From Paraflavisolibacter caeni (GTDB taxonomy: Bacteria; Bacteroidota; Bacteroidia; Chitinophagales; Chitinophagaceae): a stretch of 64,000 nucleotides of DNA. Each line of letters starts with the position of its first letter. Position 1 is the first letter of the stretch. The notes beneath the pieces were generated by a model that worked only from the letters and a program-made list of their open reading frames with translations, made no database searches and was not told where the DNA came from. The position numbers and the translations under genes are program-made. The stretch is taken from NCBI RefSeq assembly GCF_025628885.1, contig NZ_JAOTIF010000003.1, positions 62,001-126,000 on the forward strand, read 5' to 3'. This document shows, one piece after another, positions 21,756 through 38,398 of the stretch.

Positions 21756-21952
21756 GAGCAATCAGTAGTTTGTTTTTTTAATGATGATTATTATTTCAAA
21801 AATTATAGAATGGTATTGTGTTTTCAGCAAATCAGCGAGCGATCATTCATCTTAATATCAGTTCCTGCGCAATAATAAAATATATTTTGGATGCACAATT
21901 TTATACATTGTATTTTGTTTTGACAAAAAAATGTTTATGAAAAAAAATCGTC

Positions 21953-22014
21953 GTATTATCCATTAAAATTATTGTTTCCTCTATTTTCTAGACCTGGCAG
22001 CAAGACTAATTTTA
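21953..22014 (+). promoter_or_regulatory. AraC-type tandem-box promoter of the fucose-locus susC
   Basis: Box 1 (21953-21966, 12 of 14 matches to GGATAATCCATTAA) and box 2 (21974-21987, core TCTATT) start 21 bp apart. The -7 element TAATTTTA starts at 22007, exactly 33 bp after the start of box 2. The same geometry occurs at 28356 and 29765. The predicted transcript starts about 25 bp before the susC ATG. Confidence 0.7.
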
Positions 22015-22044
22015 CAAGTCCTAATCAAACATTTTAATTATCTT

Positions 22045-25000
22045 ATGAGACTTAAACAATTGCTTGCCTTGCTGCTGATATTTATATCGGCATTCAGTTA
22101 TGCCCAGCAGTCAAATACCCGGTTAGTTACGGGTACTGTCAAAGATGAAAAAGGAAATATTCTTCCTAGTATTACTGTAACAGAAAAGACAACTTCCAAT
22201 GCTGTTGTTACCAATGACAAGGGTGCTTTTTCCATTCGTGTAAAAGAGAAAAACACCATGCTTATTTTTACTGGTATTGGATTTGAAGCACAAACCATCA
22301 GTGTTGGCAGTCAAACTACTTTGAATATCATGTTAAAAGATGATGTCAAAAGTTTAAATGATGTCGTGGTTGTTGGTTATGGATCTCAAAAGAAAGCAAA
22401 GGTTACAGGTGCTGTCGCTACTGTAAAAATGGATGAAATTCTCGGTGAAAGACCTGTAAGCACAACCGCCACATTGTTGCAAGGTGTTACACCAGGCTTG
22501 CAGGTGACCTTACCTTCTGGTCGTCCAGGGGAAGGTGCCTCATTGAATATTCGTGGCGCAACTGGTTTGAATACTGCAAACAATAGTATCACTTCAGGAA
22601 GTCCATTAATCCTGGTGGATAATACGGTATTTCAAGGTCCTTTAAACCTCATTGATCCGAATGATATAGAGACTGTAACAGTATTAAAGGATGCCGGAGC
22701 CGCAGCCATTTATGGAGGGCGTTCTTCATATGGTGTTATTTTGATTCAAACCAAAAAAGGCATAAAGAACCAAAAACCTCAATTTAATTTTAGCAATAAT
22801 ACAGTGTTTGCCACACCGGATAATTTACCTCAAAAAGCTACTCCACAACAAAGCATCCAGGCTTTAATAGACGGTGGATTAACTAATTATACAGTAGGGC
22901 AGGGGCAGGATTTGAAAAAATGGATCCAGTTCATTGACGAGTATGAAGCAGATCCCAGCAAGTATCCTAATGGATACAGGTTTGATGGGCCGGTTTATTA
23001 TAATCTAAAGGGAAACAAAGCAGTTGATGAATTACTTGGCAACTCTTCCATGCAGGTGATGAATAATCTATCTGTTAGTGGTGGCTCAGATAAAACGACC
23101 TACCGTCTTTCATTTGGTGCCACTAATGAAAAAGGTATATTGATGCCTGAAAAAGATGTCGATAATTTTAAACGTTATAATGTAAAATCAGTGCTAACTA
23201 CTGATGTTACCAATTGGATGAATGTGCTCATAGATGCATCTTATTCCAATGCTGTTACCACCCGTCCTGGCTATGCTGATCCCTTTACTTATGCTGTTCG
23301 TATTCCCAGTTTTTTGACAGGAGATAGTATTCCTAATTATCCAGGTTTAATTGCAACGGGAAAGAACCTGGTTGATAATTCTTATCCTACAAAATACCGT
23401 TATGACCAGCTTAGGTTAACTGCGAAAGTTGTTTTAAAACCATTTGCAGGTATGACCATTACCGGTGAAAATACATTTGATAATTATCATGCATTAACAA
23501 CAAGTTTCGGAAAGCAATTTATATTACGTGATCCTTATGGATGGAATCCTCAGCCTTATGGAAATGACCAATTCCAAAAGAATAATGAAGCGCAGGATTA
23601 TAATTCATTAAACCTGTTTGCTGCATATACGAAAGCTTTAGGTCGTCATAACGTATCTGCGATGGCGGGTTTCAACCAGGAGACCAAGAACTATGAGCAG
23701 GAGATCCTTTCCAAAACACAAATTATTAACCCGGATCTTCCTTCCATTTCTGCTGCTTCTGGTGATTTTTCAGGCCTTGACAACTATTCCCAGTTTGCAA
23801 CCATGGGCTATTTTGGCCGCTTCAACTATGACTTTGACAGCAAATACCTTCTTGAGCTCAATGGCCGTTATGATGGTTCATCACGTTTTCCATTTAGTCA
23901 TCGTTGGGGTTTCTTCCCTTCAGCATCTGCTGGTTGGAGGATTATGAATGAGAAATTCATGGCATTTGCAAAGCCCTATTTTAGCGAGTTGAAATTAAGA
24001 GCATCTTATGGCAGTGTGGGTAACCAAAACATTGCGGAGTACCAGTTTATTGCGCCTATGTCACCATCAAACCCTTCCTGGTTTAATAGTGGCAAGAGCG
24101 TTGTGACCTTGTCAACGCCAGGATTAATCAGTCCTAACTTTACATGGGAAGAGATCAGCACTATGGATTTTGGCGTTTCTTACGGAATGCTTAAAAACAG
24201 GTTGACCGGTGAACTTGACTGGTATACCCGTGAGACAAAAGGTATCTTGAGCAGGGATAACACACCGACGCCTGCGGTATTGGGTGCCAGCGCTCCTTTG
24301 GTCAATTCTGCTTCAATGAAATCAAAAGGATTCGAGGTTGAATTGAATTGGAGGGATAAAATAGGTAAAAAAGTAAATTATTATGTTTCTGCGAACCTGT
24401 ATGATTTTACTTCCACTGTAACTAAAGTAGATAACCCCAATAATTTATTAAGTCAACTTTATGTTGGACAGAAATTGGGTGAAATGTGGGGTTATGTTAC
24501 TGACAGGTTTTACACTGTTGATGATTTTATTCCTGGTACATTGGATGCTAATTTAAAAGGTGGTGTAACCAAAGCCTATGCTCCTAAATATGGCAACCAG
24601 TCTCCCAATCCTGGCGACATCATGTATGTAGATTTGGATAGCAATGGTCTTATCAATGCCGGAGCCAATACACTTGCAGATCATGGTGACAAACGCATTA
24701 TCGGAAACAGTTCTCTTCGTTACCAATTCGGTTTCAGAGGCGGCATTTCTTTTGCCAATTTTGACTTTTCATTTGTTTTATCCGGAGTGTTGAAGAATGA
24801 CCAATTCCGCAGTAGTTATTTGTTTTTCCCCAATAACTGGCAGGTATATGGTGCCTTGTATAAAAACCAGTTGAATTACTGGACACCCAATAATCCAGAT
24901 GCTTATTTTGGAAGGATATATACAACCACTCCAAATGGATCAGAACAACCCAATAATGAAATCCTTCAAACACGTTTTGTATTGAATGGAGCTTATGTAA

Positions 25001-25212
25001 GGGTTCGTAATCTTTCATTGCGTTATAACATACCCAACCAAATTTTGGAGAGAGTGAAACTGAAGAGATTGTCGATCAGTTATAGCATTGAGAATCCTAT
25101 TGTTTTCCACCACTTGCCTAATGGAATGTATCCAGATGTCAACGATCTGGGTGGCGGTTTGGCTTATCCTTTATTGCGTAAATCATCTGTTGGTATCAAT
25201 CTCAATTTTTAA
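22045..25212 (+). CDS. SusC/RagA family TonB-linked outer-membrane protein
   Basis: 1055 residues. The signal peptide ends at FSYAQQ. An N-terminal carboxypeptidase-like regulatory domain (VTGTVKDEKGN) is followed by the SusC signature region (DDVVVVGYGSQKK), the plug domain (about 120-240, with the LKDAGAAAIYGGRSSYGVI motif) and the 22-strand barrel ending in GINLNF. It imports large oligosaccharides with the SusD partner encoded 59 bp downstream. Context of fucosidases, sulfatases and fucose catabolism suggests a fucosylated or sulfated fucan-type glycan (inference). Its promoter belongs to a three-member set with a shared operator layout. Confidence 0.95.
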   Translation: MRLKQLLALLLIFISAFSYAQQSNTRLVTGTVKDEKGNILPSITVTEKTTSNAVVTNDKGAFSIRVKEKNTMLIFTGIGFEAQTISVGSQTTLNIMLKDDVKSLNDVVVVGYGSQKKAKVTGAVATVKMDEILGERPVSTTATLLQGVTPGLQVTLPSGRPGEGASLNIRGATGLNTANNSITSGSPLILVDNTVFQGPLNLIDPNDIETVTVLKDAGAAAIYGGRSSYGVILIQTKKGIKNQKPQFNFSNNTVFATPDNLPQKATPQQSIQALIDGGLTNYTVGQGQDLKKWIQFIDEYEADPSKYPNGYRFDGPVYYNLKGNKAVDELLGNSSMQVMNNLSVSGGSDKTTYRLSFGATNEKGILMPEKDVDNFKRYNVKSVLTTDVTNWMNVLIDASYSNAVTTRPGYADPFTYAVRIPSFLTGDSIPNYPGLIATGKNLVDNSYPTKYRYDQLRLTAKVVLKPFAGMTITGENTFDNYHALTTSFGKQFILRDPYGWNPQPYGNDQFQKNNEAQDYNSLNLFAAYTKALGRHNVSAMAGFNQETKNYEQEILSKTQIINPDLPSISAASGDFSGLDNYSQFATMGYFGRFNYDFDSKYLLELNGRYDGSSRFPFSHRWGFFPSASAGWRIMNEKFMAFAKPYFSELKLRASYGSVGNQNIAEYQFIAPMSPSNPSWFNSGKSVVTLSTPGLISPNFTWEEISTMDFGVSYGMLKNRLTGELDWYTRETKGILSRDNTPTPAVLGASAPLVNSASMKSKGFEVELNWRDKIGKKVNYYVSANLYDFTSTVTKVDNPNNLLSQLYVGQKLGEMWGYVTDRFYTVDDFIPGTLDANLKGGVTKAYAPKYGNQSPNPGDIMYVDLDSNGLINAGANTLADHGDKRIIGNSSLRYQFGFRGGISFANFDFSFVLSGVLKNDQFRSSYLFFPNNWQVYGALYKNQLNYWTPNNPDAYFGRIYTTTPNGSEQPNNEILQTRFVLNGAYVRVRNLSLRYNIPNQILERVKLKRLSISYSIENPIVFHHLPNGMYPDVNDLGGGLAYPLLRKSSVGINLNF

Positions 25213-25271
25213 CTATTGATGATCCATATTATTCATAATACGGATTGGTTTTGTACATTAAATCTGAAATA

Positions 25272-27203
25272 ATGAAAAAGTATATATTATCGCTTCCTGT
25301 TCTTTTCATGCTTATCGTAAGCTGTAATAAGAACATCCTTGATAAAGCTCCCATTGATTCATTGACGGATGCTACTGCATTTAAAACGAACAGTAACTTT
25401 CTAACTTATTCATGGGGATTGTATGACTATATGGCCGGGTATGGTGGCTCGGGCTCAGCATTACCTCCTTATTTTACTTCCCAGGAACTAAATACTGATA
25501 ATTACCAGGTTTCTGCAGGGGGCAATTCCGCTTATATTACGGGTACGAAGGCAATACCAACCCAGGCAGGAGGGGCAACCAGTTCCATGCAGGTTGCCGG
25601 CTGGAATTTTTCTTATATACGCAAGGTGAATGTAATGCTGGATCATATTGATGCCTCAAGCATGACACAGGCGGAGAAAGATCATTGGAAAAGTGTAGGT
25701 TATTTTTTCAGAGCCTTACGATATTATGACATGATCGCTGCTTTTGGTGATGTGCCCTGGATTGAAAATGCATTGAATATCAATGATTCCACTGTTTTAT
25801 ATGCTCCGCGTACCTCAAGAGATAGTGTGGCCAAAAATATTCTGAATAACCTGCTATGGGCTGAGGGCCATATTAAACCTACCGGTGATGGAATTAATAC
25901 TATTAATGTTCACGTAGTGCGTGCACTGATCTCCCGTTTTGGATTGTTTGAAGGTACCTGGAGAAAATATCAAGGTTTGGCCGATGCAAATATTTATTTG
26001 CAGGCCTGTGTTACGGCTTCTCAAAAACTGGCTGCAGATTTTCAAACACTTCTACCATCCTATGATGATGTGTATAATAGTGAAGACCTTGTAGGTAAAC
26101 CTGGAATTATTCTTTGCAAGCAATACGTGTCCGGTGCGATGATCAATGGTAATACTAATACGACGCATCATACGGCAAGATTTATTACTACCGGTAACTC
26201 TGGAAATATAGCCTGTCCAACCAATGATATGGTGGAAAGCTATCTGTGTGCAGATGGTAAGCCTATTTCAACCAGTGCGACTTATGTTGGAGACTCTATT
26301 TACAGTTCATTCAGAAGCAGGGATACCAGGCTGTATTTTACTGTTTGTCCTCCCTATCGTGTCACCATGACTTCAAATCCAGTTTATGGATGGTCCCAGC
26401 CATGGGTGACTTTTGACACAACAAAGACGCCAACAACAAGATACAATGAATATATCCGCCTTATGAATGGTCTTGCTGCAACTACTGCCAGTAAGTCCAA
26501 AACATTGCCTTTGGCTTCATGGGCGCCTGCTCCAGGCAATTATATCCCACAAATGCCACATTTTGCAGGATATGTCAAAAGCCTTAATAACCTGATTTAT
26601 GATAACGGAGCCAATGGCGTTTCCGGACAAGCTGGTAATACCTTAGGTTATAAAGACTGGAAATTATATAACCGATTAGTAGTTGATGCCTCCAACGGAA
26701 GCAGTAATGATTGCCCGATTTTCAGAATTGAAGAAGTGTTGTTAAATTATGCAGAGGCTGCTTTTGAGTTGGGACAGTTTAACCAGACAATTGCAGATCA
26801 AACCATCAACAGATTGCGTAAACGTGTCAACATGCCCGATATGATTGTTGCTAATATCTCGGCCGCATTTGATACTAAACGTGACGCGGATGTAGATCCT
26901 GTGTTGTGGGAAATCAGAAGGGAGCGTCGTGTGGAATTAATGGGCGATGGTTTCCGTTTCAACGATATCAAGCGTTGGAAAAAAGGTGCCTATATGAATA
27001 AAGTTGTATTGGGTGCCCGAGTGAGAGTTGCTGATTATCCATCAGGAGTTACTTTTGATGCAACTTCAGGTACAACCTATAAGAATGTGCGTTCATTATT
27101 TACTGCCGCTCCAGCATGGAATGATAAATATTATCTAGAGCCAATACCTACCCAGGAAATGGTGATCAATCCGAAATTGATTCAGACCAAAGATTGGCAA
27201 TAA
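25272..27203 (+). CDS. RagB/SusD family nutrient-uptake lipoprotein
   Basis: About 643 residues from the ATG at 25272, chosen over an upstream TTG because MKKYILS opens a signal peptide with lipobox LIVSC (Cys18). SusD features: NILDKAPID, the YFFRALRYYDMIAAFGDVPW motif, the LLNYAEAAFELG helix, INRLRKRVNMP, and RRERRVELMGDGFRFNDIKRW near the C-terminus. It is long for the family. It pairs with the SusC just upstream as the surface glycan-binding lid. A terminator follows directly. Confidence 0.94.
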   Translation: MKKYILSLPVLFMLIVSCNKNILDKAPIDSLTDATAFKTNSNFLTYSWGLYDYMAGYGGSGSALPPYFTSQELNTDNYQVSAGGNSAYITGTKAIPTQAGGATSSMQVAGWNFSYIRKVNVMLDHIDASSMTQAEKDHWKSVGYFFRALRYYDMIAAFGDVPWIENALNINDSTVLYAPRTSRDSVAKNILNNLLWAEGHIKPTGDGINTINVHVVRALISRFGLFEGTWRKYQGLADANIYLQACVTASQKLAADFQTLLPSYDDVYNSEDLVGKPGIILCKQYVSGAMINGNTNTTHHTARFITTGNSGNIACPTNDMVESYLCADGKPISTSATYVGDSIYSSFRSRDTRLYFTVCPPYRVTMTSNPVYGWSQPWVTFDTTKTPTTRYNEYIRLMNGLAATTASKSKTLPLASWAPAPGNYIPQMPHFAGYVKSLNNLIYDNGANGVSGQAGNTLGYKDWKLYNRLVVDASNGSSNDCPIFRIEEVLLNYAEAAFELGQFNQTIADQTINRLRKRVNMPDMIVANISAAFDTKRDADVDPVLWEIRRERRVELMGDGFRFNDIKRWKKGAYMNKVVLGARVRVADYPSGVTFDATSGTTYKNVRSLFTAAPAWNDKYYLEPIPTQEMVINPKLIQTKDWQ

Positions 27204-27221
27204 TTCGTATCTATTGAAATT

Positions 27222-27253
27222 AAAAGGCTGCTTTCTTCAGGAAGCAGCCTTTT
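27222..27253. terminator. Terminator between susD and the convergent araC
   Basis: A 12-bp stem AAAAGGCTGCTT with its complement, flanked by A-run and T-run, can act in both directions between convergent genes. Confidence 0.9.
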
Positions 27254-27281
27254 TCAGTAATACACCGAGGGGATAAATCTA

Positions 27282-28163
27282 TCAGATTACCTCTCTGTAT
27301 TCTTTAGGGGATTTATTCATAATCTGCTTAAAAAGCCGGGAAAAATAATAAGGGTCATCGTAACCAACTTTTTCTGCTATTTCTCTGATCTTTAATTCAC
27401 TTTGCGAAAGCAATTGACAGGCAAAATGAATTTTCATATTGATGAAATAATCAATTGGAGAAGATCCCGTTTTTTTCTTGAAAATGGCGGTATAATGTGA
27501 CGAAGAATATTGAAACTGGTTTGCTATTATATCAGCTGTCAAGCGTTTATCAATATTTGCTTTCATGTATTCTATGGATTGGTCCAATGGGCATTCCTGT
27601 TCGAGGATGTTGAATTTATTATTAGGAAAAAAGAAGAACGACAAAAAGCGATATAAACAAAAATTGGCATATCCTATCGTTGTCGTTGAATACTCACTGG
27701 CTAAACTGGAATACATTTCAAACCACACATCTATTATTTTTTCATCATAAAATATATCAGTCGGTTTATAATATTGTTCTACATTAAATTCCTTATTCAA
27801 CTCGTTAAGTTTATTGCTGCTGAAGTGAACCCAATAAATTGTCCATGGGTCATTAATGTCGGCCTGAAAGCGGTGATACTGGTGTGGAGGAATAATTATG
27901 AATTGATTGGGGGCCAATTCAAACTTTTCTTCAGCATTTTCAATATAACCTTTGCCCCCTAATGAATAAAGCAGGATATAGTCTTCGCAACCGTTTTTCC
28001 TTTCCCTGTAGTGATACAGTGCTTTGGGAAAATAACCTATGTGGGTAATAAACAGGGAGTGTAGAAATTCTTTCTTTTTGATATGCTTTGATAAAATAGT
28101 TTTAGGAATGTTTATTTGTTTTTCTCCTATAAAACCATCTCTTCTTTTTGCTGACATTTGCAT
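27282..28163 (-). CDS. AraC family transcriptional regulator of the fucose locus
   Basis: 293 residues. Cupin-type sensor domain in the first 175 residues (DYILLYSLGGKGY, QFIIIPPHQYHRF, WTIYWVHFSS) and a two-HTH AraC DNA-binding domain at about 190-293 (YSSSHYTAIFKKKTG, GYDDPYYFSRLFKQIMNKSPKEYR). It is closely similar to the AraC protein at 13033. Encoded on the opposite strand, between the SusCD pair and the catabolic operon, it is the obvious candidate for binding the 21-bp-spaced boxes at 21953, 28356 and 29765. The ligand is likely L-fucose or a catabolic intermediate (inference). A second in-frame ATG two codons in is also possible. Confidence 0.93.
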   Translation of the reverse strand: MQMSAKRRDGFIGEKQINIPKTILSKHIKKKEFLHSLFITHIGYFPKALYHYRERKNGCEDYILLYSLGGKGYIENAEEKFELAPNQFIIIPPHQYHRFQADINDPWTIYWVHFSSNKLNELNKEFNVEQYYKPTDIFYDEKIIDVWFEMYSSLASEYSTTTIGYANFCLYRFLSFFFFPNNKFNILEQECPLDQSIEYMKANIDKRLTADIIANQFQYSSSHYTAIFKKKTGSSPIDYFINMKIHFACQLLSQSELKIREIAEKVGYDDPYYFSRLFKQIMNKSPKEYREVI

Positions 28164-28258
28164 TCTATTTTACTGGATTTCAAGGGATTGTTGAAAGTAA
28201 ACCGGGACGAGTTTATTTTATATTTATTTATTTAATTCTATCATTTTTTCATAACATG

Positions 28259-28272
28259 GGATAATCCATTAA
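28259..28272 (+). promoter_or_regulatory. Isolated upstream AraC-type half-site
   Basis: An exact GGATAATCCATTAA identical to box 1 at 28356, 97 bp further upstream and about 96 bp upstream of the araC start. No convincing second box or -7 element lies at the usual spacing. It might be a looping or autoregulatory site. Confidence 0.5.
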
Positions 28273-28355
28273 GTGTTTCTACAGATTTTTTCAAAAGTAC
28301 TCATGAATTTGTAAAAAAAATATGATTGATTAGCCTTGTAATAAAAATTTTCAGA

Positions 28356-28417
28356 GGATAATCCATTAATGTTAGTGTATAGTCTATTGAATTCTATACC
28401 AGTCCTAAATAATTTTA
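28356..28417 (+). promoter_or_regulatory. AraC-type tandem-box promoter upstream of the glycosidase gene
   Basis: Box 1 GGATAATCCATTAA (28356-28369), box 2 GTATAGTCTATTGA (28377-28390), start-to-start 21 bp. The TTG in box 2 (28387-28389) acts as a -33 element, 20 nt before the -7 element TAATTTTA (28410-28417). The layout equals the promoters at 21953 and 29765. The leader to the ATG at 28514 would be about 90 nt. Confidence 0.75.
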
Positions 28418-28513
28418 CGGAATTTTATTTTTTTCAGTTTCCTGAAGGGGGCCGGGGATTTTTTTGGAGATCCTGCAGGAACTAGAATGGCAATTTAAAT
28501 CAATTTAGTATCC

Positions 28514-29692
28514 ATGACCAGGTCGGTATTTTTATATTTCAAATTCGTATTTCTTCAAATTGTTGCTTTCCTGTTGTTTTTAAAACTTTCAGCCCAAGAT
28601 GATCTGAATTTAAATGCAAGGCTTGGCATTGTTGATTCTTCTGGTATTTTTTATACTGATGGTTATTACACCTGGTGCAGCAGTGTCATCAAAGGGGAAG
28701 ATGGGAAGTATCATATGTTCTATTCACGCTGGCCTCATGGCAAAAGAACTGCAGACGATGATTCCATGAATTATATTTTCAATGGATTCAGGGGCTGGAA
28801 TAAGTATTCCGAAATTGCCTATGCGGTATCGGATCACCTGAATGGACCTTATCGCTATGTAAAAACAATTTTAAAAGGCGATGGCAATCCTGCAAGATGG
28901 GACAGGTATACCATGCACAATCCTCAGATACGCAAATTCGGAAAGTTTTATTACCTCTATTATATCAGTAATTCTTTTGATCCCGGTTTTCAGTATAAAG
29001 ACTCAGCTACCAATAAAGACTGGCATCATTGGCTGAAGTATAATTGTACGCAAAGCGTTGGTGTCATCAGGGCTTCCAGTATCCAGGATTTAGTTGCAGG
29101 TAATTATTACAAACCAACTGGTCCGGTAATGATGGTTGACCGGATAAATACCTTTGAAGTAACAACCAATCCTACAGTTACCCAGGGGCCAGATGGTAAA
29201 TATTATATGATGTTCAAGTCCAGGAAGCCCAATGTTGGGAATATGACATTTTGGATGGCAAAAGCGGACCAGCCTGATCAACCATTTACGTTGATTGGAG
29301 ACGTATTTACTTCGGCGGAACTGGCTTGTGAAGATCCGTGTATGTGGTATGATCGTAAAAGAAAATGTTTCTATGCTGCAGTAAAATATTATTCGCACAG
29401 CAAAAAGCTGGTCCCCCAGTTTGGTGCTCTAGCCCTGATCACTTCACGCGACGGATTGCATTGGCAGGCAGCTCATCATTCGCTTGTTTCTTTGAGGGAG
29501 ATCAGGATGAAGGATGGCAGAAGGATTGAATTGGCACATCTTGAGCGTCCATTTGTCGTTACCGATCAAAAAGGGCAACCACTGGCCTTATTTGCTGCAG
29601 CATCGATTAATGAACCATCCAGTGGAGATGTCATGCATGTTACGTCAGAGTATAATACGTTTAATGTTTGTTTCCCAATCAAGAAGAAATAG
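28514..29692 (+). CDS. Five-bladed beta-propeller glycoside hydrolase-like protein (GH43/GH117-type)
   Basis: 392 residues with a signal peptide ending at LSAQ. Repeated propeller signatures include GYYTWCSSVIKGEDGKY and HMFYSRWP, EIAYAVSDHLNGPY, HNPQIRKFGKFYYLYYI, TVTQGPDGKYYMMF and ELACEDPCMWYD, matching family-43-like proteins often found with sulfatases and fucosidases in Bacteroidota loci. The exact CAZy family cannot be fixed by eye, and catalytic acids are not assigned. Periplasmic or surface hydrolysis of a sulfated or fucosylated glycan is likely. It is the first gene after the araC and has its own AraC-type promoter. Confidence 0.8.
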   Translation: MTRSVFLYFKFVFLQIVAFLLFLKLSAQDDLNLNARLGIVDSSGIFYTDGYYTWCSSVIKGEDGKYHMFYSRWPHGKRTADDDSMNYIFNGFRGWNKYSEIAYAVSDHLNGPYRYVKTILKGDGNPARWDRYTMHNPQIRKFGKFYYLYYISNSFDPGFQYKDSATNKDWHHWLKYNCTQSVGVIRASSIQDLVAGNYYKPTGPVMMVDRINTFEVTTNPTVTQGPDGKYYMMFKSRKPNVGNMTFWMAKADQPDQPFTLIGDVFTSAELACEDPCMWYDRKRKCFYAAVKYYSHSKKLVPQFGALALITSRDGLHWQAAHHSLVSLREIRMKDGRRIELAHLERPFVVTDQKGQPLALFAAASINEPSSGDVMHVTSEYNTFNVCFPIKKK

Positions 29693-29764
29693 ATGGATTT
29701 ATATAGACTGGAGTGAAGATTGAGGTTAATTGTCGCTATAAATTGCACTTACCGAAGCGTCATA

Positions 29765-29826
29765 GGATAGTCCATTAAAGTTGTCGGATGGTCTATTGAG
29801 TGGACTTTGCTTTAAGAATAACTTTA
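29765..29826 (+). promoter_or_regulatory. AraC-type tandem-box promoter of the fucose catabolic operon
   Basis: Box 1 GGATAGTCCATTAA (29765-29778) and box 2 GGATGGTCTATTGA (29786-29799) start 21 bp apart. The TTG at 29796-29798 lies 20 nt before the -7 element TAACTTTA (29819-29826). Predicted transcription starts near 29833, which favours the ATG at 29868 for the dehydrogenase. Confidence 0.75.
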
Positions 29827-29867: not shown

Positions 29868-30668
29868 ATGAAGCAGTTAAACAATAAAGTTATTTTTTTA
29901 ACCGGCGGTACTGAAGGCATAGGGTATGAATGTGCTAAAGCATATGTGCACGAAGGCGCTCATGTAATCATAGCGGCAAATTGTGAAACGAAATTATCAG
30001 AAGTTGCTGAAGAATTTGGTCCTGGGCACCTTGGTATTTTTTGTGATGTCAGCAATGCTGCCGATGTACGTAATGCTATAAACAGAAGTCTTGAAGTATA
30101 TGGGAGAATAGATGCCATACATAATAATGCAGGTATTGCCCATCCATCTAAAACGCTTGATGAAACTACAAGTGAAGAATGGGATCAACTGATGAATGTT
30201 AATCTGAAAAGTATTTTTCATACAGTTAAATATGGTTTTGCGGCATTGAAGGCCTCAGAAGGATGCATATTAAATACCAGCAGTTTGGTAGGGGAAATCG
30301 GACAAGAGTTGCATGCGGCTTATACAGCGACCAAAGGAGGTGTCAATGCTTTAACAAAATCGCTGGCCCTGGATTATGCGAAGTACAATATCAGGGTCAA
30401 TGCAGTAAGCCCTGCAGGTGTATTAACGCCTATGTTAAAAAAGTGGAAAGAAGAACAGCCTGATCCTGCTCATATAACCGCTTACCTGGATGCGATCCAT
30501 CCGCTTGGTTACTGCCCAGGTGGGGATGTAATCGCTGATGCCTGTGTTTTTTTGCTTTCGGATAAGGCCAGGTTTATTACTGGCTGTATTTTGCCTGTCA
30601 GCGGTGGGGCAGAACTTGGTTATAGAAGTATTATTACAGTTCCAGACCCTCTTGAAATTGAAAAATGA
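29868..30668 (+). CDS. SDR family oxidoreductase, probable L-fucose dehydrogenase
   Basis: About 266 residues. Rossmann motif TGGTEGIG, NNAG, catalytic Ser in NTSSLVG and YTATK (Tyr and Lys). The segments SSLVGEIGQ, TKSLALDYAKYNIRVN, DPAHI and the C-terminal GGAELGYR resemble the HSD17B14 group, whose human member oxidises L-fucose. Reaction: L-fucose to L-fuconolactone with NAD(P)+. The ATG at 29868 is chosen because the predicted transcription start falls near 29833; the ATG at 29835 would add 11 residues. Followed at 9 bp by a GH29 fucosidase and then fuconate dehydratase. Alternative: a 2-keto-3-deoxyfuconate dehydrogenase. Confidence 0.85.
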   Translation: MKQLNNKVIFLTGGTEGIGYECAKAYVHEGAHVIIAANCETKLSEVAEEFGPGHLGIFCDVSNAADVRNAINRSLEVYGRIDAIHNNAGIAHPSKTLDETTSEEWDQLMNVNLKSIFHTVKYGFAALKASEGCILNTSSLVGEIGQELHAAYTATKGGVNALTKSLALDYAKYNIRVNAVSPAGVLTPMLKKWKEEQPDPAHITAYLDAIHPLGYCPGGDVIADACVFLLSDKARFITGCILPVSGGAELGYRSIITVPDPLEIEK

Positions 30669-30677
30669 TCATTTATT

Positions 30678-31997
30678 ATGAGAAGATTTTTTTTACTAAC
30701 AGTTGCTTTCCACTTTTCTTTTTTCCTGTTACAGGCCCAGACAGCAAAGCCTGCCGGTGTGAAAACCGGAAAACAGGTTCTTGACAATTTCATGGACATG
30801 CGTTTTGGCATGTTCATACACTGGGGGCCGGTTACATTGCGTGGTACTGAAATCGGATGGTCAAGAAACCACCAGGTGGCGCAAAATGACTATGATAGTT
30901 TGTACAAGGAGTTCAACCCTGTTTTGTTTGATGCAGAAAGTTGGGTTAAAACAGCAAAGACAGCCGGCATGAAATATTTGACCATCACAGCCAAGCATCA
31001 TGATGGGTTTTGTTTATGGCCTTCCGCATTTACCCCTTATAATATCAGCAATACTCCGTTCAGGAAAGACGTAGTAGGCTTGCTTGCAAAAGCCTGCAAA
31101 AAATATGGTGTTAAATTCTGTATTTACTATACTGTGCTCGATTGGTACAGTACCGATTATCCTTTGCATAACAATGGAACAAAGCAGCCAGATGCAAATG
31201 GCAATATGGAACGGTTTACACTGTATATGAAAAACCAGTTGAAAGAATTAATCACCAATTACCATCCTTATATGCTTTGGTTTGACGGCAATTGGGAATC
31301 ACCTTGGACAAAGGAAATGGGCGCGGATATGTATGCTTTCATAAAAAGTTTGGATACTTCCGTGATTGTCAACAACCGTTTGGGCAAAGGAGACCACAAA
31401 ACAATAACTGATGCATCGGTGGGTGATTATGCTACTCCTGAACAGGTGGTGGGCAAGATGAATATGGAATATCCATGGGAATCCTGTATAACCATTAGTA
31501 AACAGTGGTCATGGAAACCCAACGATGAATTGAAGACGTTGCAACAATGTCTTCAAACCCTTGCTGGTACTTCTGGTGGCAATGGAAACCTGTTGCTTAA
31601 TATCAGTCCAATGCCTGATGGTCGCATTGAACAACGTCAAATAAATCGTTTACAGGAAATCGGCAACTGGCTTCAAAAAAATGGAGAAGCCGTTTATGGG
31701 ACTTTGGGTGGACCTTTTTTCCCTGATAGTTTGAAAGCTTCTACCCGGAAAGGAAATAAAATATACCTGCATTTGTTTGCTTCCAATAAAAATCAGTTGC
31801 AATTGGTAAATGTGCCAGGGTGCACGGTTAAAAAGGCCTTCTTTCTGAATGGTGCTACGGTTGATTTTCAGCAAAGCAGTCAGCATATTGTTCTATCCTG
31901 GAATGGAAATATGCCTGATCACAATTGCTCTGTGCTTGTATTGGAAATGGATCAAAATGTTGAGAACGTTCCTTTAATTAATAATTCAAGTAAATAA
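30678..31997 (+). CDS. Alpha-L-fucosidase, GH29
   Basis: 439 residues with a signal peptide ending at LLQAQ. GH29 signatures in order: MRFGMFIHWGP, AKHHDGFCLWPS, FCIYYTVLDWY, and YMLWFDGNWE, where Asp203 is the expected nucleophile. LLLNISPMPDG follows in the usual place. The pattern fits the broad-specificity GH29-A-type group, but this is judged by eye. It releases L-fucose in the periplasm for the dehydrogenase and dehydratase encoded on either side. The stop codon overlaps the next start (TAATG), so translation is coupled. Confidence 0.94.
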   Translation: MRRFFLLTVAFHFSFFLLQAQTAKPAGVKTGKQVLDNFMDMRFGMFIHWGPVTLRGTEIGWSRNHQVAQNDYDSLYKEFNPVLFDAESWVKTAKTAGMKYLTITAKHHDGFCLWPSAFTPYNISNTPFRKDVVGLLAKACKKYGVKFCIYYTVLDWYSTDYPLHNNGTKQPDANGNMERFTLYMKNQLKELITNYHPYMLWFDGNWESPWTKEMGADMYAFIKSLDTSVIVNNRLGKGDHKTITDASVGDYATPEQVVGKMNMEYPWESCITISKQWSWKPNDELKTLQQCLQTLAGTSGGNGNLLLNISPMPDGRIEQRQINRLQEIGNWLQKNGEAVYGTLGGPFFPDSLKASTRKGNKIYLHLFASNKNQLQLVNVPGCTVKKAFFLNGATVDFQQSSQHIVLSWNGNMPDHNCSVLVLEMDQNVENVPLINNSSK

Positions 31998-33220
31998 TGA
32001 TACAGAATTTTCAAATAAGAGACCGGAGATTTCAACTGAATGGAGGGGCAGGTAGTGATGCCATCCATCGTGACCCGATCTATTCTTATGCGGTGACAGA
32101 ACTTGCAGATGATAGCGGTATTACCGGCACTGGCTTCGCCTTTACATTGGGTGAAGGGAATGACCTGGTATGCAAAGCTGCTGCTTTCTATGCCGAACAA
32201 TTAAAAGGAAAAGATATTGAAGAACTCATGGCCAACTTTGGCCACGTATTCAACCAGTTTTCAAATCAACAGCAGTTCAGGTGGCTGGGGCCACATAAAG
32301 GCGTGGTACACCTGGCACTTGCGTCTGTAACTAATGCCTGTTATGATTTGTGGGCTAAAAAAAGAGGGTTACCGCTCTGGAAGTTATTGATTGATCTTTC
32401 GCCGGAGCAAATCATCAATACACTGGATCTTTCATACCTGGAAGATGTTTTGACAAGGGAACAGGCGCTTCAATTAATGCAGGATGGGCTGACCGGCAAG
32501 CAGGAACGAAATGATATTGTATTAAAAGGTTATCCCGGCTATGATACATCGGTGGGCTGGTTTAATTATGATGATGAGATGGTAAGAGCAAATTGCAAGA
32601 AAGCAATTGCTGCCGGCTTTACTGCCATGAAATTAAAAGTAGGATCAACCGATCCAAAAAGAGATATCAGGAGAGCGCATATTGTACGTGAAGAAGCTGG
32701 TGATCACTGTAAAGTGATGCTCGATGCTAACCAGCAATGGACCCTGCCCCAGGCTTTAAGCATCTGCAAGGAACTGCAGTCGATGCAGCCTTACTGGATA
32801 GAAGAACCCACGCATCCGGATGATGTGCTGGCACATAAGACATTGGCCGATGCCATTGCGCCCACGAAAATAGCACTAGGCGAACATGTTCCCAACCGCA
32901 TCATTTTCAAGAATTATTTGCAAACCGGTTGTGCAGGCTTTATGCAGGCAGATGCTGTGCGTTTAGGTGGTGTGAGTGAGTTTATCACGGTTAGCCTGCT
33001 CTGTAAGAAATACGGAGTGCCCGTAGTGCCACATGTAGGAGATATGGGCCAATTACATCAGCACCTGGTATTGTTCAATCATATTTCTATGGGACATGAA
33101 GCGTTGTTTTTGGAACATATACCGCATTTACAAAAGCATTTTATTCATCCGGCGCAAATTGTAAACGGTGTCTATCAAACTCCTGAAGTGCCTGGCAGCA
33201 GTTGTGATTTGAAAAATTAA
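31997..33220 (+). CDS. L-fuconate dehydratase (enolase superfamily)
   Basis: 407 residues. Mandelate-racemase-type enolase superfamily member: N-terminal capping domain with GGAGSDAIHRDPIYSYAV and GFAFTLGEGND, then the barrel with the Lys base in MKLKVG, metal ligands in MLDANQQW, WIEEPTHP and ALGEHVPN, and the catalytic His in PHVGDMGQLHQH. This arrangement and the N-terminal SDAIHRDP segment match the characterised Xanthomonas L-fuconate dehydratase group (also human ENOSF1). Reaction: L-fuconate to 2-keto-3-deoxy-L-fuconate. Translationally coupled to the fucosidase, and 1 bp ahead of the transporter. No signal peptide, cytoplasmic. Confidence 0.92.
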   Translation: MIQNFQIRDRRFQLNGGAGSDAIHRDPIYSYAVTELADDSGITGTGFAFTLGEGNDLVCKAAAFYAEQLKGKDIEELMANFGHVFNQFSNQQQFRWLGPHKGVVHLALASVTNACYDLWAKKRGLPLWKLLIDLSPEQIINTLDLSYLEDVLTREQALQLMQDGLTGKQERNDIVLKGYPGYDTSVGWFNYDDEMVRANCKKAIAAGFTAMKLKVGSTDPKRDIRRAHIVREEAGDHCKVMLDANQQWTLPQALSICKELQSMQPYWIEEPTHPDDVLAHKTLADAIAPTKIALGEHVPNRIIFKNYLQTGCAGFMQADAVRLGGVSEFITVSLLCKKYGVPVVPHVGDMGQLHQHLVLFNHISMGHEALFLEHIPHLQKHFIHPAQIVNGVYQTPEVPGSSCDLKN

Positions 33221-33221
33221 A

Positions 33222-34886
33222 ATGCTACTCACCATGATTGGAAATATTGATATTATCATTAGTGTATTCTATATTCTCGGTATTGTAACCGTAGGATTAT
33301 GGGCTGGCTTTAAAAAAAAGGAAGTGAAAGCAGGAACTGCTTCCAATGATTATTTTTTGGCAGGTAAGACATTGAAATGGCCGATGATCGGGTTGGCATT
33401 GTTTGCTACCAATATTTCATGTCTGCACCTGGTTAGTCTTGCCCAGTCGGGATTTGATACAGGTTTGTTGAATGGCAACTTCGAATGGATGGCAGCATTT
33501 ACATTGATACTGTTGGCATTGTTTTTTGTTCCTTTTTATTTGAAATCAAACGTAACTACTCTTCCCGATTTCCTGGAAAGGAGATATAACAGGGCATGCC
33601 GGGATTGGCTGGCGGTTATTTCCATTTTATCAGCCGTTATCATTCATATTGCCTTTTCATTTTTAGCAGGTGGTATCGTACTGAAAACATTGTTTGGCGT
33701 CAATATGTATGTTAGTGTGATTGTTATTGCACTACTTACCGGTATTTATACCATCATTGGAGGGTTGCGTGCAGTCGTTATTACCGAGTCGATACAAACT
33801 GTTGTATTGCTGGCTGGTGCTATTATTATCACCGTCATTTGCTTTCAAAAAACAGGGGGGTGGAGTTCCATTACACAAACGCTGCAGGATACCAATAGTT
33901 TAGATAAGCTATCCATGCTTCGACCTGCTGGCGATGCCAGCGGCATGCCCTGGTATGCTGTTTTTTTGGGGTATCCTGTATTGGGTATCTGGTACTGGTG
34001 TGCTGATCAAACCATTGTGCAACGTGTATTAGGTGCAAAGGATGTCAATCATGGGAGAGTAGGGGCCTTGTTCTGTGGACTGATTAAGCTTTTGCCTGTA
34101 TTTATTTTCGTTTTGCCTGGTCTAATGGCTTTTGTATTAGCACAAAGAGGGTTGTTTGATGTCAGCAGTATTCAGCATATTGATGCTACTGGGAAAACAA
34201 TAACTGAAACAAAGGGGATTTACACGTTAATGATTACCCAGTTAGTGCCCACAGGATTGGTTGGTGTGCTTGCGGCTGCTTTGTTATCAGGATTAATGAG
34301 CCAGATCTCAGGCGCGTTGAATTCAATTGCTACGCTGGCAAGCTATGATTTATATCAGCGCTTTCAACCCTATGCCAGTGATTTGAAGTTGGTTAAAGTA
34401 GGCCGAATTTCAGCGGCCATTGCCCTGGTTGCCTCCATTGCATTATTGCCCTTGCTCAATCAATATGAGAGTTTGTTTCAGGGGATTAATGATATTATCG
34501 CTCATATAGCGCCGCCAATAACCACGGTGTTTGTGCTAGGCATATTCTGGAAAAAGGCTTCAGCAAAATCAGCACAGTATACATTGTGGTTCGGTTCTTT
34601 ACTTGGCGCAATCGTGTTTGCAGTGAACAAGCTGATGCCAGAAGCCGCTATCAGCAGCATTCCATTTATGATGATGGCATTCTATCTGTGTTGTACCTGT
34701 GTTTTCATGCAGGTAGTGTTATCCTATATTTTCCCAGTTGAGCATACCAAGCAAAGTGCAGTGCTTTATTGGAAATCACCATTGGAACCTTTAAGGGGTA
34801 AGGCCTGGGGCGGAATTGGTAATTACAAATTCCTGTCCGTATTGTTGATTGTAATTATGATCTGTATGTACTGGGTATTCCGGTAA
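33222..34886 (+). CDS. Sodium:solute symporter (SSS family), probable fucose or fuco-oligosaccharide importer
   Basis: 554 residues with about 14 hydrophobic segments. SSS features: NDYFLAGKTLKWPMIG (first core helix), LPDFLERRYN, and the WYWCADQTIVQRVLGAKD segment typical of the SGLT/sugar branch, with ALLSGLMSQISGALNS later. A second ATG at 33234 could be the start. Packed between fuconate dehydratase and a mutarotase, so import of L-fucose released in the periplasm is the best guess. It would duplicate the function of the FucP-like permease at 60723. Confidence 0.9.
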   Translation: MLLTMIGNIDIIISVFYILGIVTVGLWAGFKKKEVKAGTASNDYFLAGKTLKWPMIGLALFATNISCLHLVSLAQSGFDTGLLNGNFEWMAAFTLILLALFFVPFYLKSNVTTLPDFLERRYNRACRDWLAVISILSAVIIHIAFSFLAGGIVLKTLFGVNMYVSVIVIALLTGIYTIIGGLRAVVITESIQTVVLLAGAIIITVICFQKTGGWSSITQTLQDTNSLDKLSMLRPAGDASGMPWYAVFLGYPVLGIWYWCADQTIVQRVLGAKDVNHGRVGALFCGLIKLLPVFIFVLPGLMAFVLAQRGLFDVSSIQHIDATGKTITETKGIYTLMITQLVPTGLVGVLAAALLSGLMSQISGALNSIATLASYDLYQRFQPYASDLKLVKVGRISAAIALVASIALLPLLNQYESLFQGINDIIAHIAPPITTVFVLGIFWKKASAKSAQYTLWFGSLLGAIVFAVNKLMPEAAISSIPFMMMAFYLCCTCVFMQVVLSYIFPVEHTKQSAVLYWKSPLEPLRGKAWGGIGNYKFLSVLLIVIMICMYWVFR

Positions 34887-34937: not shown

Positions 34938-35393
34938 ATGGCAAAGAAACTTTTCATATTTCTGATAGCATGTGTTGTATTTACAGCGTGCAAACAAAAG
35001 GTTGATAATAAAGGAAATGACAAATTAGCTTCAACAGCCATTGAGAAAAAACAGATGGTTCGATATGGCATGGTTACGGGGATCAAGCCAGAGAAGTTAG
35101 GCTACTATAAAGAATTGCATGCCAAGCCATGGCCTGCTGTTGTGGCTAAAATCAAGGAATGTAATATTGAAAACTATTCCATCTATTTGCAGAAAATAGC
35201 AGACAAATATTACCTGTTTTCCTATTTTGAATATACAGGAAAAGACTTTGATGCCGATATGAAAAAGATGGCGGCAGATACCACAACACAACGGTGGTGG
35301 AAGGAAACAGATCCCTGTCAATTGCCTTTACCAGAAGCTATGTCAAGAAAACAAATCTGGACGGAAATGGGAGAACTGTTTCATGCAGAGTAA
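34938..35393 (+). CDS. L-rhamnose/L-fucose mutarotase-like lipoprotein (RhaM/DUF718 family)
   Basis: About 151 residues from the ATG at 34938. Unusually for this enzyme family it carries a lipoprotein signal (lipobox FTAC, Cys18). The mature part has the RhaM fold signatures: YGMVTGIKPEKLGYYKELHAK with PWP, IENYSIYLQ, YYLFSYFEYTG, and WWKETDPCQ. Members interconvert sugar anomers; a related Xanthomonas protein encoded beside fuconate dehydratase is an L-fucose mutarotase. Membrane anchoring suggests it acts in the periplasm before import. Lies between the transporter and the second fucosidase. Confidence 0.85.
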   Translation: MAKKLFIFLIACVVFTACKQKVDNKGNDKLASTAIEKKQMVRYGMVTGIKPEKLGYYKELHAKPWPAVVAKIKECNIENYSIYLQKIADKYYLFSYFEYTGKDFDADMKKMAADTTTQRWWKETDPCQLPLPEAMSRKQIWTEMGELFHAE

Positions 35394-35427
35394 AAACTAT
35401 TATGTCTTTTAAGTAAGAAATACTTTG

Positions 35428-36795
35428 ATGCGATTTTATATTTTCATGCTCACCATAGCTGGATTGATGTATTTTCAATCTGTTCAGGCACAGGAAGGAT
35501 TTCTCAAACCAACACCTTTGCAATTGAACTGGCAAGAAAACGAAACTACAGCCTTTTTGCATTTTTCAATCAATACATTTACTGGTAAAGAATGGGGGGA
35601 CGGTACGGAAAGTCCGCAGATATTTAATCCCGTAAAATTTGATGCAAGACAATGGGTGAAAGCATTGAAGGATGCCGGGTTTAAAATAGCCATTATCACA
35701 GCAAAGCATCATGATGGATTTTGTTTGTGGCCTACAAATACAACAGATCACTCCGTAAAAAACAGTCCCTGGAAAAATGGGAAAGGTGATGTTGTAAAAG
35801 AAGTGGCAGATGCCTGTAAGGAATTTGGCGTTGCATTTGGCTTTTATCTTTCGCCCTGGGACAGGCATGAGAAGAGTTATGGAACACCTGCCTATAATGA
35901 GTTTTATAAAAAGCAGTTGAAAGAGTTATTAACCAATTATGGTGAAGTGGCTGAAGTTTGGTTTGATGGTGCCAAAGGGAAAAATGAAAAAGATATGGTC
36001 TATGATTTTGATGGTTACTGGAAAATGGTGCGTGAAATGCAACCCAAAGCGATCATTTTTTCAGGAGTTGGTCCCGATGCCAGGTGGGTAGGCAATGAAA
36101 ATGGAAATGCCGGTGATACCTGCTGGTCAACGATTAATACAGATGGCATGATGCCCGGAAATGTAAATCCCAGTTATTTAAATAAGGGTGATGAGCATGG
36201 AAAAAAATGGATTCCTGCAGAGACCGATGTGAGCATTCGACCAGGCTGGTTTTGGCATGAAAAGGAGAATAACCAGGTACGTTCTGCAAAAAATCTTGTA
36301 AACCTGTATTATCAATCTGTAGGTAGAAACAGTTTGCTCTTGCTGAATATACCACCGAATAAAGATGGCCTTTTTGAGGAAACAGACATTCGTGCTATTG
36401 ATAGCTTGCGCAATATTCTCAATGAAACCTTTGCACATAATTTAGTTAAAAGCAGAACTAAAAAAGAACTTACCGACAAAAAAATAAGTACTTGCATTGC
36501 ACTAAAAGTAAATGAACCTTTGGTTATTAACCTGGGAAAGGAACAAATATTTGATCGCTTATTAATGCAGGAAAATATTGAGAATGGACAAAGTATCAAA
36601 CAAGGATTGTGTGAATATTGGGATGGTAGCAAATGGCAAGTTCTTAAAACATTTTCGACTATTGGTTATAAGCGATTACTTCGTTTTAATACCATAAAAA
36701 GTTCAAAAGTCCGGCTTACTATTTTGCAAGCAAAAATAAATCATCAGCCTCAGTTATCTGAAGTTGGTGTTTACAAAGCGTCTGCAGGAGAATAA
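35428..36795 (+). CDS. Alpha-L-fucosidase, GH29 (B-type)
   Basis: About 455 residues from the ATG at 35428, with a signal peptide ending at VQAQ. GH29 signatures: AFLHFSINTFTGKEWGDG, AKHHDGFCLWPT, the HSVKNSPWKNGKGDVV stretch, FGFYLSPWDRHEKSYG, and EVWFDGAKG with Asp180 as expected nucleophile. These match the GH29-B group (alpha-1,3/1,4-linked fucose on branched glycans). A C-terminal beta-sandwich (about residues 340-455) is present. A second fucosidase of different type in the operon implies more than one fucosyl linkage in the target. Confidence 0.94.
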   Translation: MRFYIFMLTIAGLMYFQSVQAQEGFLKPTPLQLNWQENETTAFLHFSINTFTGKEWGDGTESPQIFNPVKFDARQWVKALKDAGFKIAIITAKHHDGFCLWPTNTTDHSVKNSPWKNGKGDVVKEVADACKEFGVAFGFYLSPWDRHEKSYGTPAYNEFYKKQLKELLTNYGEVAEVWFDGAKGKNEKDMVYDFDGYWKMVREMQPKAIIFSGVGPDARWVGNENGNAGDTCWSTINTDGMMPGNVNPSYLNKGDEHGKKWIPAETDVSIRPGWFWHEKENNQVRSAKNLVNLYYQSVGRNSLLLLNIPPNKDGLFEETDIRAIDSLRNILNETFAHNLVKSRTKKELTDKKISTCIALKVNEPLVINLGKEQIFDRLLMQENIENGQSIKQGLCEYWDGSKWQVLKTFSTIGYKRLLRFNTIKSSKVRLTILQAKINHQPQLSEVGVYKASAGE

Positions 36796-36861: not shown

Positions 36862-38343
36862 ATGAAACGTATAGCTTCTTTTATACTGGGCGCGGTTATA
36901 CTTGCCTGCTGCTTTTTGTCAGCTGGTGCAAAAGAGCCTGGACCTGTTAATCCGCCGCAGCCACAAAGGCCCCCTAATGTTATCCTGATTTTAATGGACG
37001 ATATGGGTTATGGTGATCTGGAGTGTTATGGTGGTTTTCCGTATCATACTCCGGAAATTAATAAGCTGGCGTCGAGTGGCATGCGCTTTACCAATTTTTA
37101 TGTAGCCCAGGCTACCTGCAGCGCATCAAGGTCCGCTATTCTAACAGGATGTTACCCGAACAGGATTGGCGTTTCCGGTGCATTCAGTCCCGACAATAAA
37201 ATTGCCTTAAATCCGGATGAAGAAACCATAGCCAAGCTGCTCAAGGATCGTGGTTATAAAACAGGAATGGTGGGTAAATGGCACCTGGGGCAAAAAGTAC
37301 CATTTCTTCCACTCAATTATGGGTTTGATGAATTTCTCGGATTACCTTATTCGCATGATTACTGGCCAGTAAATTATGATGGTACGCCATTAGACACTAC
37401 TAGCGTACGGGGCAAATGGCCAACTCTTAGATTGATCGAAGGGAATGAGAAAGGAAAAGCGATTACTACCCTGGAAGATGCTTCAAAGCTTACGACCATG
37501 TACACGGAAAGGGCTATCAGTTTTATTAAAAAGAATAAAAACAATCCTTTCTTTTTATACCTGGCTCATCCAATGCCTCATGTGCCCCTGGCTGTTTCTG
37601 CAAAATTCAAAGGAAAAAGTGGTGCCGGATTATTTGGGGATGTTATGGAAGAAATTGACTGGTCTGTAGGCCAGATTATGAAAACCCTGGATGCAAACGG
37701 CCTTACGAAAAATACGCTCGTCATTTTTACCAGCGATAATGGTCCCTGGCTTACTTATGGTAATCATGCAGGCAATACCGGGGGCTTGCGAGAAGGAAAA
37801 GGCAGTGCGTGGGATGGAGGTGTTAAAGTGCCCTGTATCATAAGCTGGCCGGGTAAGATTGCTGCAGGCAATATTTGTAATAACATGGTGGCAAGTATGG
37901 ATTTGCTGCCTACCATTATGACTGTATGTAATGCGAAAATGCCTGTTAAAAAAATTGATGGGGTAAATGTATGGCCCCTGCTTAGCGGCGTACCCAATGC
38001 AAATCCACGGGATGAATTTGTTTATTATTACGACCGCAATAGTTTAAAGGGTATTAGAAAAGGCCAGTGGAAATTGGTATTCCCCAACATATCTCAAACC
38101 TATAAAAGAACTTCTGCCATTGGAGTGGATGGTTGGCCGGGCAAGTATGCAAGTGATTCGGTAAAGCTTGCCTTGTATGATTTGCGCACAGATCCAGGAG
38201 AAACACTGGATGTGAAAGAGAAATTTCCGGACATTGTAACACAGCTTACTGAAATCGCAGATCGATACAGAAATGAATTAGGAGATGATCTGACCAAAAA
38301 AACCGGAACCGAAGTGCGGCCTGCTGCAAAAGTAACCTTCTAA
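36862..38343 (+). CDS. Sulfatase (S1 family), CSASR active site
   Basis: 493 residues with a signal peptide (FLSAGAKE). Alkaline-phosphatase-fold sulfatase: N-terminal LILMDDMGYGDLECYGG with metal-binding Asp pair, active-site CSASRSAILTG with Cys86 as the predicted formylglycine, VGKWHLG, HPMPHVPL, and FTSDNGPW. The motif is C-x-A-x-R and not the textbook C-x-P-x-R, a variant seen in other Bacteroidota sulfatases. Exported desulfation of the target glycan. Followed 55 bp later by a second sulfatase of a different subfamily. Confidence 0.93.
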   Translation: MKRIASFILGAVILACCFLSAGAKEPGPVNPPQPQRPPNVILILMDDMGYGDLECYGGFPYHTPEINKLASSGMRFTNFYVAQATCSASRSAILTGCYPNRIGVSGAFSPDNKIALNPDEETIAKLLKDRGYKTGMVGKWHLGQKVPFLPLNYGFDEFLGLPYSHDYWPVNYDGTPLDTTSVRGKWPTLRLIEGNEKGKAITTLEDASKLTTMYTERAISFIKKNKNNPFFLYLAHPMPHVPLAVSAKFKGKSGAGLFGDVMEEIDWSVGQIMKTLDANGLTKNTLVIFTSDNGPWLTYGNHAGNTGGLREGKGSAWDGGVKVPCIISWPGKIAAGNICNNMVASMDLLPTIMTVCNAKMPVKKIDGVNVWPLLSGVPNANPRDEFVYYYDRNSLKGIRKGQWKLVFPNISQTYKRTSAIGVDGWPGKYASDSVKLALYDLRTDPGETLDVKEKFPDIVTQLTEIADRYRNELGDDLTKKTGTEVRPAAKVTF

Positions 38344-38398
38344 CAATACAATATATCAGCTGACGTTTGAAGAAAAAACATATAATACAGCATACAAA

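Follow-up and report, generated by a model that had tools for sequence, protein, structure and literature searches.

A paired-box operator at a fixed distance from the -7 element probably ties a putative fucose locus of Paraflavisolibacter caeni to a cupin-AraC subfamily

Introduction

By which protein, and through which DNA element, are the genes of a putative fucose locus in Paraflavisolibacter caeni switched on? To our knowledge, the sugar loci of environmental Bacteroidota are mostly without known operators. The locus lies in a stretch of 64,000 nucleotides on contig NZ_JAOTIF010000003.1 (positions 62,001 to 126,000), which we call the window (G000:C23:62001-126000, where G000 is the species' own genome of 7.0 Mb) and to which positions refer unless a contig or locus is given. 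A first-pass annotation had proposed that three promoters, at 21953, 28356 and 29765, share two tandem boxes and a -7 element in the same geometry, and that this marks the regulon of an AraC-family protein encoded at 27282 (the 27282 protein). We find that the geometry recurs in other genomes beside genes of the same AraC subfamily and, judging from these comparisons, that each site very probably serves as operator and promoter for a class-II AraC activator of that subfamily.

Results

The proposed geometry was exact to the base at all three positions: box 2 starts 21 bp after box 1, and an element of the form TAAYTTTA begins 33 bp past the start of box 2. Site 1 reads, from 21953, GTATTATCCATTAA - aattatt - GTTTCCTCTATTTT followed by 19 nt and TAATTTTA (22007); site 2, from 28356, reads GGATAATCCATTAA - tgttagt - GTATAGTCTATTGA, 19 nt and TAATTTTA (28410); and site 3, from 29765, reads GGATAGTCCATTAA - agttgtc - GGATGGTCTATTGA, 19 nt and TAACTTTA (29819). 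The weakest copy is site 1, where box 2 agrees with GGATNGTCTATTGA at 8 of its 13 specified letters by hand count and keeps the core TCTATT intact without the TTG. Each of the three therefore carries two like-oriented, similar boxes about 21 bp apart, the arrangement expected of a direct-repeat operator of AraC proteins or hybrid two-component system (HTCS) regulators. A palindromic operator was also considered for the GGATnATCC of box 1 and rejected, since by eye box 2 and most relatives lose GGATnATCC but the direct repeat stays.

The full core, TCCATTA-N14-TCTATT-N21-TANNTTT, was searched for on both strands of the window and matched three times, solely at the three sites, while only one of 774 alternative core geometries gave a match, and that a single one. 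No match occurred in 60 simulated first-order Markov windows. Isolated boxes are weak evidence: with up to three mismatches, box 1 alone gave 27 matches in the window against 15.6 expected, and box 2 alone gave 19 against 9.4. A motif scan of the genome, which the first-pass annotation had named as a check, returned eight matches to a 35-bp pattern at up to three mismatches and none for the backward control (7.0 Mb); another scan of the same genome at three mismatches returned 49 matches against 27 in the control.

We then asked what distances would emerge from DNA that had not defined them. The held-out set comprised 57 loci (1.01 Mb) of other genomes, picked by AraC homology and not by the motif; pattern-chosen loci, which had been part of an earlier 62-locus spacing test, were left out. 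A box matrix trained on the three window sites only was scanned at start-to-start distances of 12 to 40 bp. At the strict threshold, the 21 bp spacing gave 14 matches in 12 of the 57 loci, compared with a mean of 1.3 and a maximum of 5 at the 28 other spacings, and TAnnTTT stood at exactly +33 in 12 of these 14 and at +32 in one. At a looser threshold there were 30 matches in 23 loci at 21 bp (mean 7.0 and maximum 14 elsewhere), 19 of them with the element at +33. The 21 bp spacing was the single peak, and thus both distances of the earlier annotation were recovered in loci that had no part in setting them. The 57 loci are not fully independent of one another: L091 and L092 represent a single strain and share one site, and several of the loci from Flavobacterium, Pedobacter and Chitinophaga are closely related. 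Examples come from Flavobacterium sp. A45 (L061), a Ferruginibacter metagenome-assembled genome (L062), Zobellia uliginosa (L073) and Pedobacter psychroterrae (L093); in relatives such as the first three, an araC gene again diverges from the site, as the 27282 gene does from site 2.

The sites also cluster beside the AraC genes. A retrained matrix of 62 columns (18 training sites, 8 of them inside the 57 loci) found 33 sites within 600 bp of AraC open reading frames (ORFs; 73 kb) and 16 elsewhere (935 kb), a density about 26 times higher beside AraC genes than in the rest of the same loci; a near site was present in 30 of the 57 loci, and one mononucleotide shuffle of 1.3 Mb gave no match. For all 42 sites scoring at least 20, an ORF start called mechanically lies no more than 450 bp ahead, as it does for 15% of random positions, and 39 of the 42 lie outside ORFs (16% of random positions); for 23 there is a second ORF start on the opposite side. 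In eight of the 57 loci, one or more of six genes from the fucose cluster have a counterpart with an identity of 45% or above; all eight have a site scoring at least 20, and five of them gave training sites. At eight loci of more distant AraC-type genes in G000 (about 3.3 kb each) we found no site. By computation we show that the geometry holds, that it recurs in other genomes, that the sites face genes and that they go with the subfamily, all as expected if the boxes are the direct repeats, two helical turns apart, that the first-pass annotation had assigned to a class-II AraC activator.

Across 58 genomes, the pattern at up to one mismatch occurred seven times in G000, five times in the same-genus genome G015, once each in G031 and G014, and in none of the other 54; G015 is the only relative among them with a near ortholog of the 27282 protein (71%; next 41%). 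In G015 a single AraC match at E<=1e-40 accompanies seven strong sites, and mainly because of this lone match one such AraC protein would seem to serve all sites. The seven are all training sites of the model used there (R1; 18 training sites, 9 from G000 and 7 from G015), and the best R1 matches in both genomes are its training sites. The G015 region between araC and the GH43-like gene (GH, glycoside hydrolase) has diverged in the alignment, yet its site and -7 element stand out. The short-chain dehydrogenase/reductase (SDR), dehydratase and symporter genes of G015 lie about 38 kb from its AraC gene, and a site (L165:12023) is retained 95 bp before the start of the orthologous SDR gene. A further site in G015, L166:8562, stands ahead of a run of genes on one strand that includes an L-fucose dehydrogenase (403 bits against a curated cut-off of 300), together with below-cut-off matches to L-fuconolactonase and a didehydro-deoxy-rhamnonate hydrolase. 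The R1 scan of the other 16 members of the genus gave nothing below 1e-4 (best 1.7e-4, in G008).

The 27282 protein has the domains that such a role would require. Its C-terminal double helix-turn-helix (HTH) is of the AraC type (PF00165, 77.5 bits with a cut-off of 26.6; PF12833, 68 bits with a cut-off of 33.6) and its N-terminal domain is an AraC-like cupin ligand-binding domain (PF02311, 47.6 bits with a cut-off of 21.1); against the Escherichia coli AraC equivalog NF007860 it scores below the cut-off (93.8 bits vs 208). We infer binding, activation and not repression, contact with polymerase, and L-fucose or a metabolite as the ligand. Two monomers would bind the same face of the DNA in head-to-tail order, box 1 and box 2 each taking one; the boxes lie 21 bp or two turns apart. 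With its end, box 2 would cover the -33 region. The constant distance of 33 bp to TAnnTTTR would set the proximal monomer against polymerase, so that with the sugar ligand present the AraC protein could compensate for a poor -33 element. It would switch on the SusCD pair, the GH43-like gene and the fucosidase, dehydratase and symporter genes together, probably along with further loci elsewhere.

The primary-sigma promoter of Bacteroidota, as described for Bacteroides fragilis, has TAnnTTTG at -7 and TTTG at about -33, and in the same source a -33 motif is not identified in Flavobacterium johnsoniae (PMC7366714). With the -7 element set at its B. fragilis position (PMC7366714), the proximal box would span about -44 to -31. 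The overlap with -33 is a prediction; the distance from box 2 to the -7 element is 33 bp at every window site and in most strict held-out matches, and this constancy suggests polymerase contact rather than mere proximity. Compared with TAnnTTTG, 15 of 18 sites have TA..TTT, and the last letter is A in 14 and G in 4. The first-pass annotation had box 2's TTG serve as the -33 element in the two best copies, which is only partly borne out, as TTG ends box 2 in 10 of the 18 sites and TTT does in the other 8. TTG is thus not required, as would be expected if an activator takes over the task of a good -33 element.

Several results weigh against assigning the sites to this subfamily, or to the 27282 protein within it. 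No near site at score 16 was found in 27 of the 57 held-out loci, and no site of any position at score 20 in 25, of which 21 have an AraC protein below 40% identity. Among the 58 genomes, 9 of the 12 with an AraC match at E<=1e-40 have no pattern match at up to one mismatch, and G014 has a strict site but no such AraC match. With two mismatches allowed, G000 gave 12 matches vs 2 in the control and G015 gave 6 vs 5, and outside these two genomes there were 68 real vs 100 control matches; at that setting the pattern is noise outside G000. In G000 itself, the three other subfamily members, namely a paralog 64% identical to the 27282 protein and the more distant C35 and C14 (39% and 36%), have no site in their loci of 3.8-3.9 kb. 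Around the two nearest G000 homologs of L-fucose dehydrogenase (75 and 72% identical), the adjoining 18-19 kb contained no site at score 12, and therefore the regulon in G000 does not simply equal fucose catabolism as a whole. As a regulon mark, the motif held its association with the subfamily in other genomes but is not specific to the 27282 protein alone.

The main rival candidate is the 64% paralog, whose gene (13033-13950) lies inside the window together with that of the 27282 protein and whose HTH region is very similar. We regard it as unlikely that the paralog, or both proteins, bind the sites in vivo, with the 27282 protein not the main activator: it is the 27282 gene that diverges from site 2, an arrangement repeated in L061, L062 and L073; the paralog's own 3.9 kb locus (L002) contains no paired site; and G015 has its seven strong sites, training sites though they are, with a single AraC match. 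It is less probable still, indeed very improbable, that some other AraC-type DNA-binding protein such as an HTCS reads the boxes and the 27282 gene is a mere neighbour. HTCS motifs of Bacteroides likewise consist of direct repeats, spaced 21 bp on average (PMC3878776), but the sites are concentrated beside this AraC subfamily, frequent matches to the strict pattern are confined to the two genomes with a near ortholog, and none of the eight loci of more distant AraC-type proteins in G000 carries one. A chance origin, or a common promoter sequence with no regulator, could draw on the mild enrichment of single boxes in the window, and is hardly credible given the empty simulated windows and the peaks at 21 bp and +33 in held-out genomes. 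We conclude that a class-II AraC activator of the 27282 subfamily remains by far the most probable reader of the sites.

Table 1. Operator elements, candidate regulators and genes in the window
Feature	Position	Strand	Remark
Site 1 box 1	21953..21966	+	distal half-site, susC promoter
Site 1 box 2	21974..21987	+	proximal half-site, weakest copy
Site 1 -7 element TAATTTTA	22007..22014	+
Site 2 box 1	28356..28369	+	promoter of GH43-like gene, between it and divergent araC; aligned site in G015
Site 2 box 2	28377..28390	+
Site 2 -7 element TAATTTTA	28410..28417	+
Site 3 box 1	29765..29778	+	promoter of SDR-fucosidase-dehydratase-symporter genes; G015 SDR ortholog keeps site
Site 3 box 2	29786..29799	+
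Site 3 -7 element TAACTTTA	29819..29826	+
Fourth box 1	28259..28272	+	perfect, unpaired; no box 2 or -7 element in register
AraC-family regulator (27282 protein)	27282..28163	-	AraC_binding (cupin) and AraC HTH domains; proposed binder of sites
AraC paralog	13033..13950	+	64% identical to 27282 protein; possible second binder
GH18	20742-21761	-
SusC-type TonB-dependent receptor	22045..25212	+	target of site 1
SusD-type lipoprotein	25272..27203	+	next downstream of SusC gene
GH43-like protein	28514..29692	+	target of site 2; Pfam 24.6 bits, below cut-off 32.2
SDR dehydrogenase	29868..30668	+	first gene past site 3; start set by comparison with relatives
GH29 alpha-L-fucosidase	30678..31997	+
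Enolase-superfamily protein	31997..33220	+	probable sugar-acid dehydratase
Sodium:solute symporter	33222..34886	+
rhaM-family sugar mutarotase	34938..35393	+
Second GH29 alpha-L-fucosidase	35425..36795	+
Two sulfatases, downstream	36862..39964 (36862-38343, 38399-39964)	+

The genes around the three sites (Table 1) fit a locus that serves fucose-containing, perhaps sulfated, glycans, a substrate assignment drawn from gene content. The listed TTG start of the SDR gene at 29781 overlaps box 2 of site 3; we took it to be a mechanical call and discarded it, as relatives begin at the equivalent of 29868. The unpaired box is found upstream of both site 2, at a distance of 97 bp, and the start of the divergent araC gene, at about 96 bp. 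No such box was seen at the corresponding position of the G015 alignment, and the idea of a conserved looping site was dropped for that reason; a site for autoregulation or looping, perhaps in this species alone, is possible.

The candidate regulon is wider than the three promoters of the first-pass annotation, all of which do carry the motif. Six strong sites lie in G000 outside the window, at C4:128619, C24:7976, C24:59214, C31:33840, C78:127452 and C23:31272 (R1 E<=1.7e-6, all training sites). The last of these has a GH29 fucosidase gene on one side and a GH20 gene on the other, C31:33840 precedes DUF5703 and GH97 genes, and contig C24 also has a weaker site (C24:45483, E 0.005) and GH29 and GH95 matches. 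The sites at C4, C24:59214 and C78 precede genes for an extracytoplasmic function (ECF)-type sigma factor, then FecR, then SusC, and operators in this position suggest, from gene order, a cascade in which an AraC protein stands over sigma factors. These out-of-window sites may answer to the 27282 protein, to its paralog or to the C35 and C14 members.

Some further observations concern sites on other contigs. In locus coordinates, operators before ECF sigma, FecR and SusC genes were seen at L041:8620, L043:9275 and L044:8514, on contigs other than that of the window. At L042:4160-7945, in a fucosidase-bearing contig, a site stands before a PSCyt1/DUF1549/DUF1553 gene followed by a DUF1501 gene, which encode Planctomycete-type proteins of unknown function. 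Related sites at L163:541 and L168:10707 stand before a gene for a MaoC-type dehydratase (assigned by Pfam in L163 and by resemblance in L168). The gene runs of these two loci are similar in G000 and G031, and genes of similar appearance occur in Zobellia locus L073, a hint that a sister AraC may control another pathway.

Discussion

Two operator boxes together with a -7 element at a constant position amount to a search pattern that links promoters, start sites and operons to a regulator, distant targets included. We suggest that the 21/33 geometry could be a general rule of the cupin-AraC subfamily across Bacteroidota and that in this genome the regulator could also stand atop a sigma cascade, a joint proposal that we put at just short of an even chance. 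If it is true, sequence alone would suffice to read off the regulons of the subfamily. Outer-membrane glycan uptake systems, which otherwise answer to sigma factors of their own, would then be licensed by an internal fucose signal.

In the titles and abstract openings listed by our literature searches we found no account of the motif or of a fucose AraC in these groups, and neither these nor the passages considered here describe the box sequence, the constant -7 phase or the sigma-operon targets. Direct repeats of about 21 bp have already been described for AraC and HTCS regulators of Bacteroides, and by that comparison we would class the site as a known kind of gene control.

The arrangement resembles that of AraC in Escherichia coli, where at araI1-I2 the direct repeat is also 21 bp apart, with the proximal half over the upstream element of the promoter and activation of class II; the E. 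coli promoter is of the sigma-70 -35/-10 type, whereas that proposed here is -33/-7. Closer in lineage, the AraC-family rhamnose regulator RhaR of Bacteroides has a motif of direct repeats of about 21 bp and likewise controls a sugar regulon, although its sugar is different; in the description of RhaR used here no fixed distance to a -7 element is stated (PMC3870299). Similar too are the HTCS regulators of Bacteroides thetaiotaomicron, which have an AraC-type DNA-binding domain, one-face direct repeats two turns apart (21 bp on average) and SusCD targets, but they are sensor-kinase fusions, unlike the soluble cupin-AraC protein here (PMC3878776). CgrA of Zobellia galactanivorans is, like the 27282 protein as we propose it, an AraC-family positive regulator of a Bacteroidota sugar locus, with induced susCD genes that lie far from that locus; its substrate is carrageenan, the likeness drawn here is one of described role, and the account considered here describes no CgrA operator motif (PMC5698469). 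For fucose itself the present sites point to genes under an AraC activator, in contrast to Bacteroides, where fucose is described as being under the GntR-family regulator FucR (PMC3878776).

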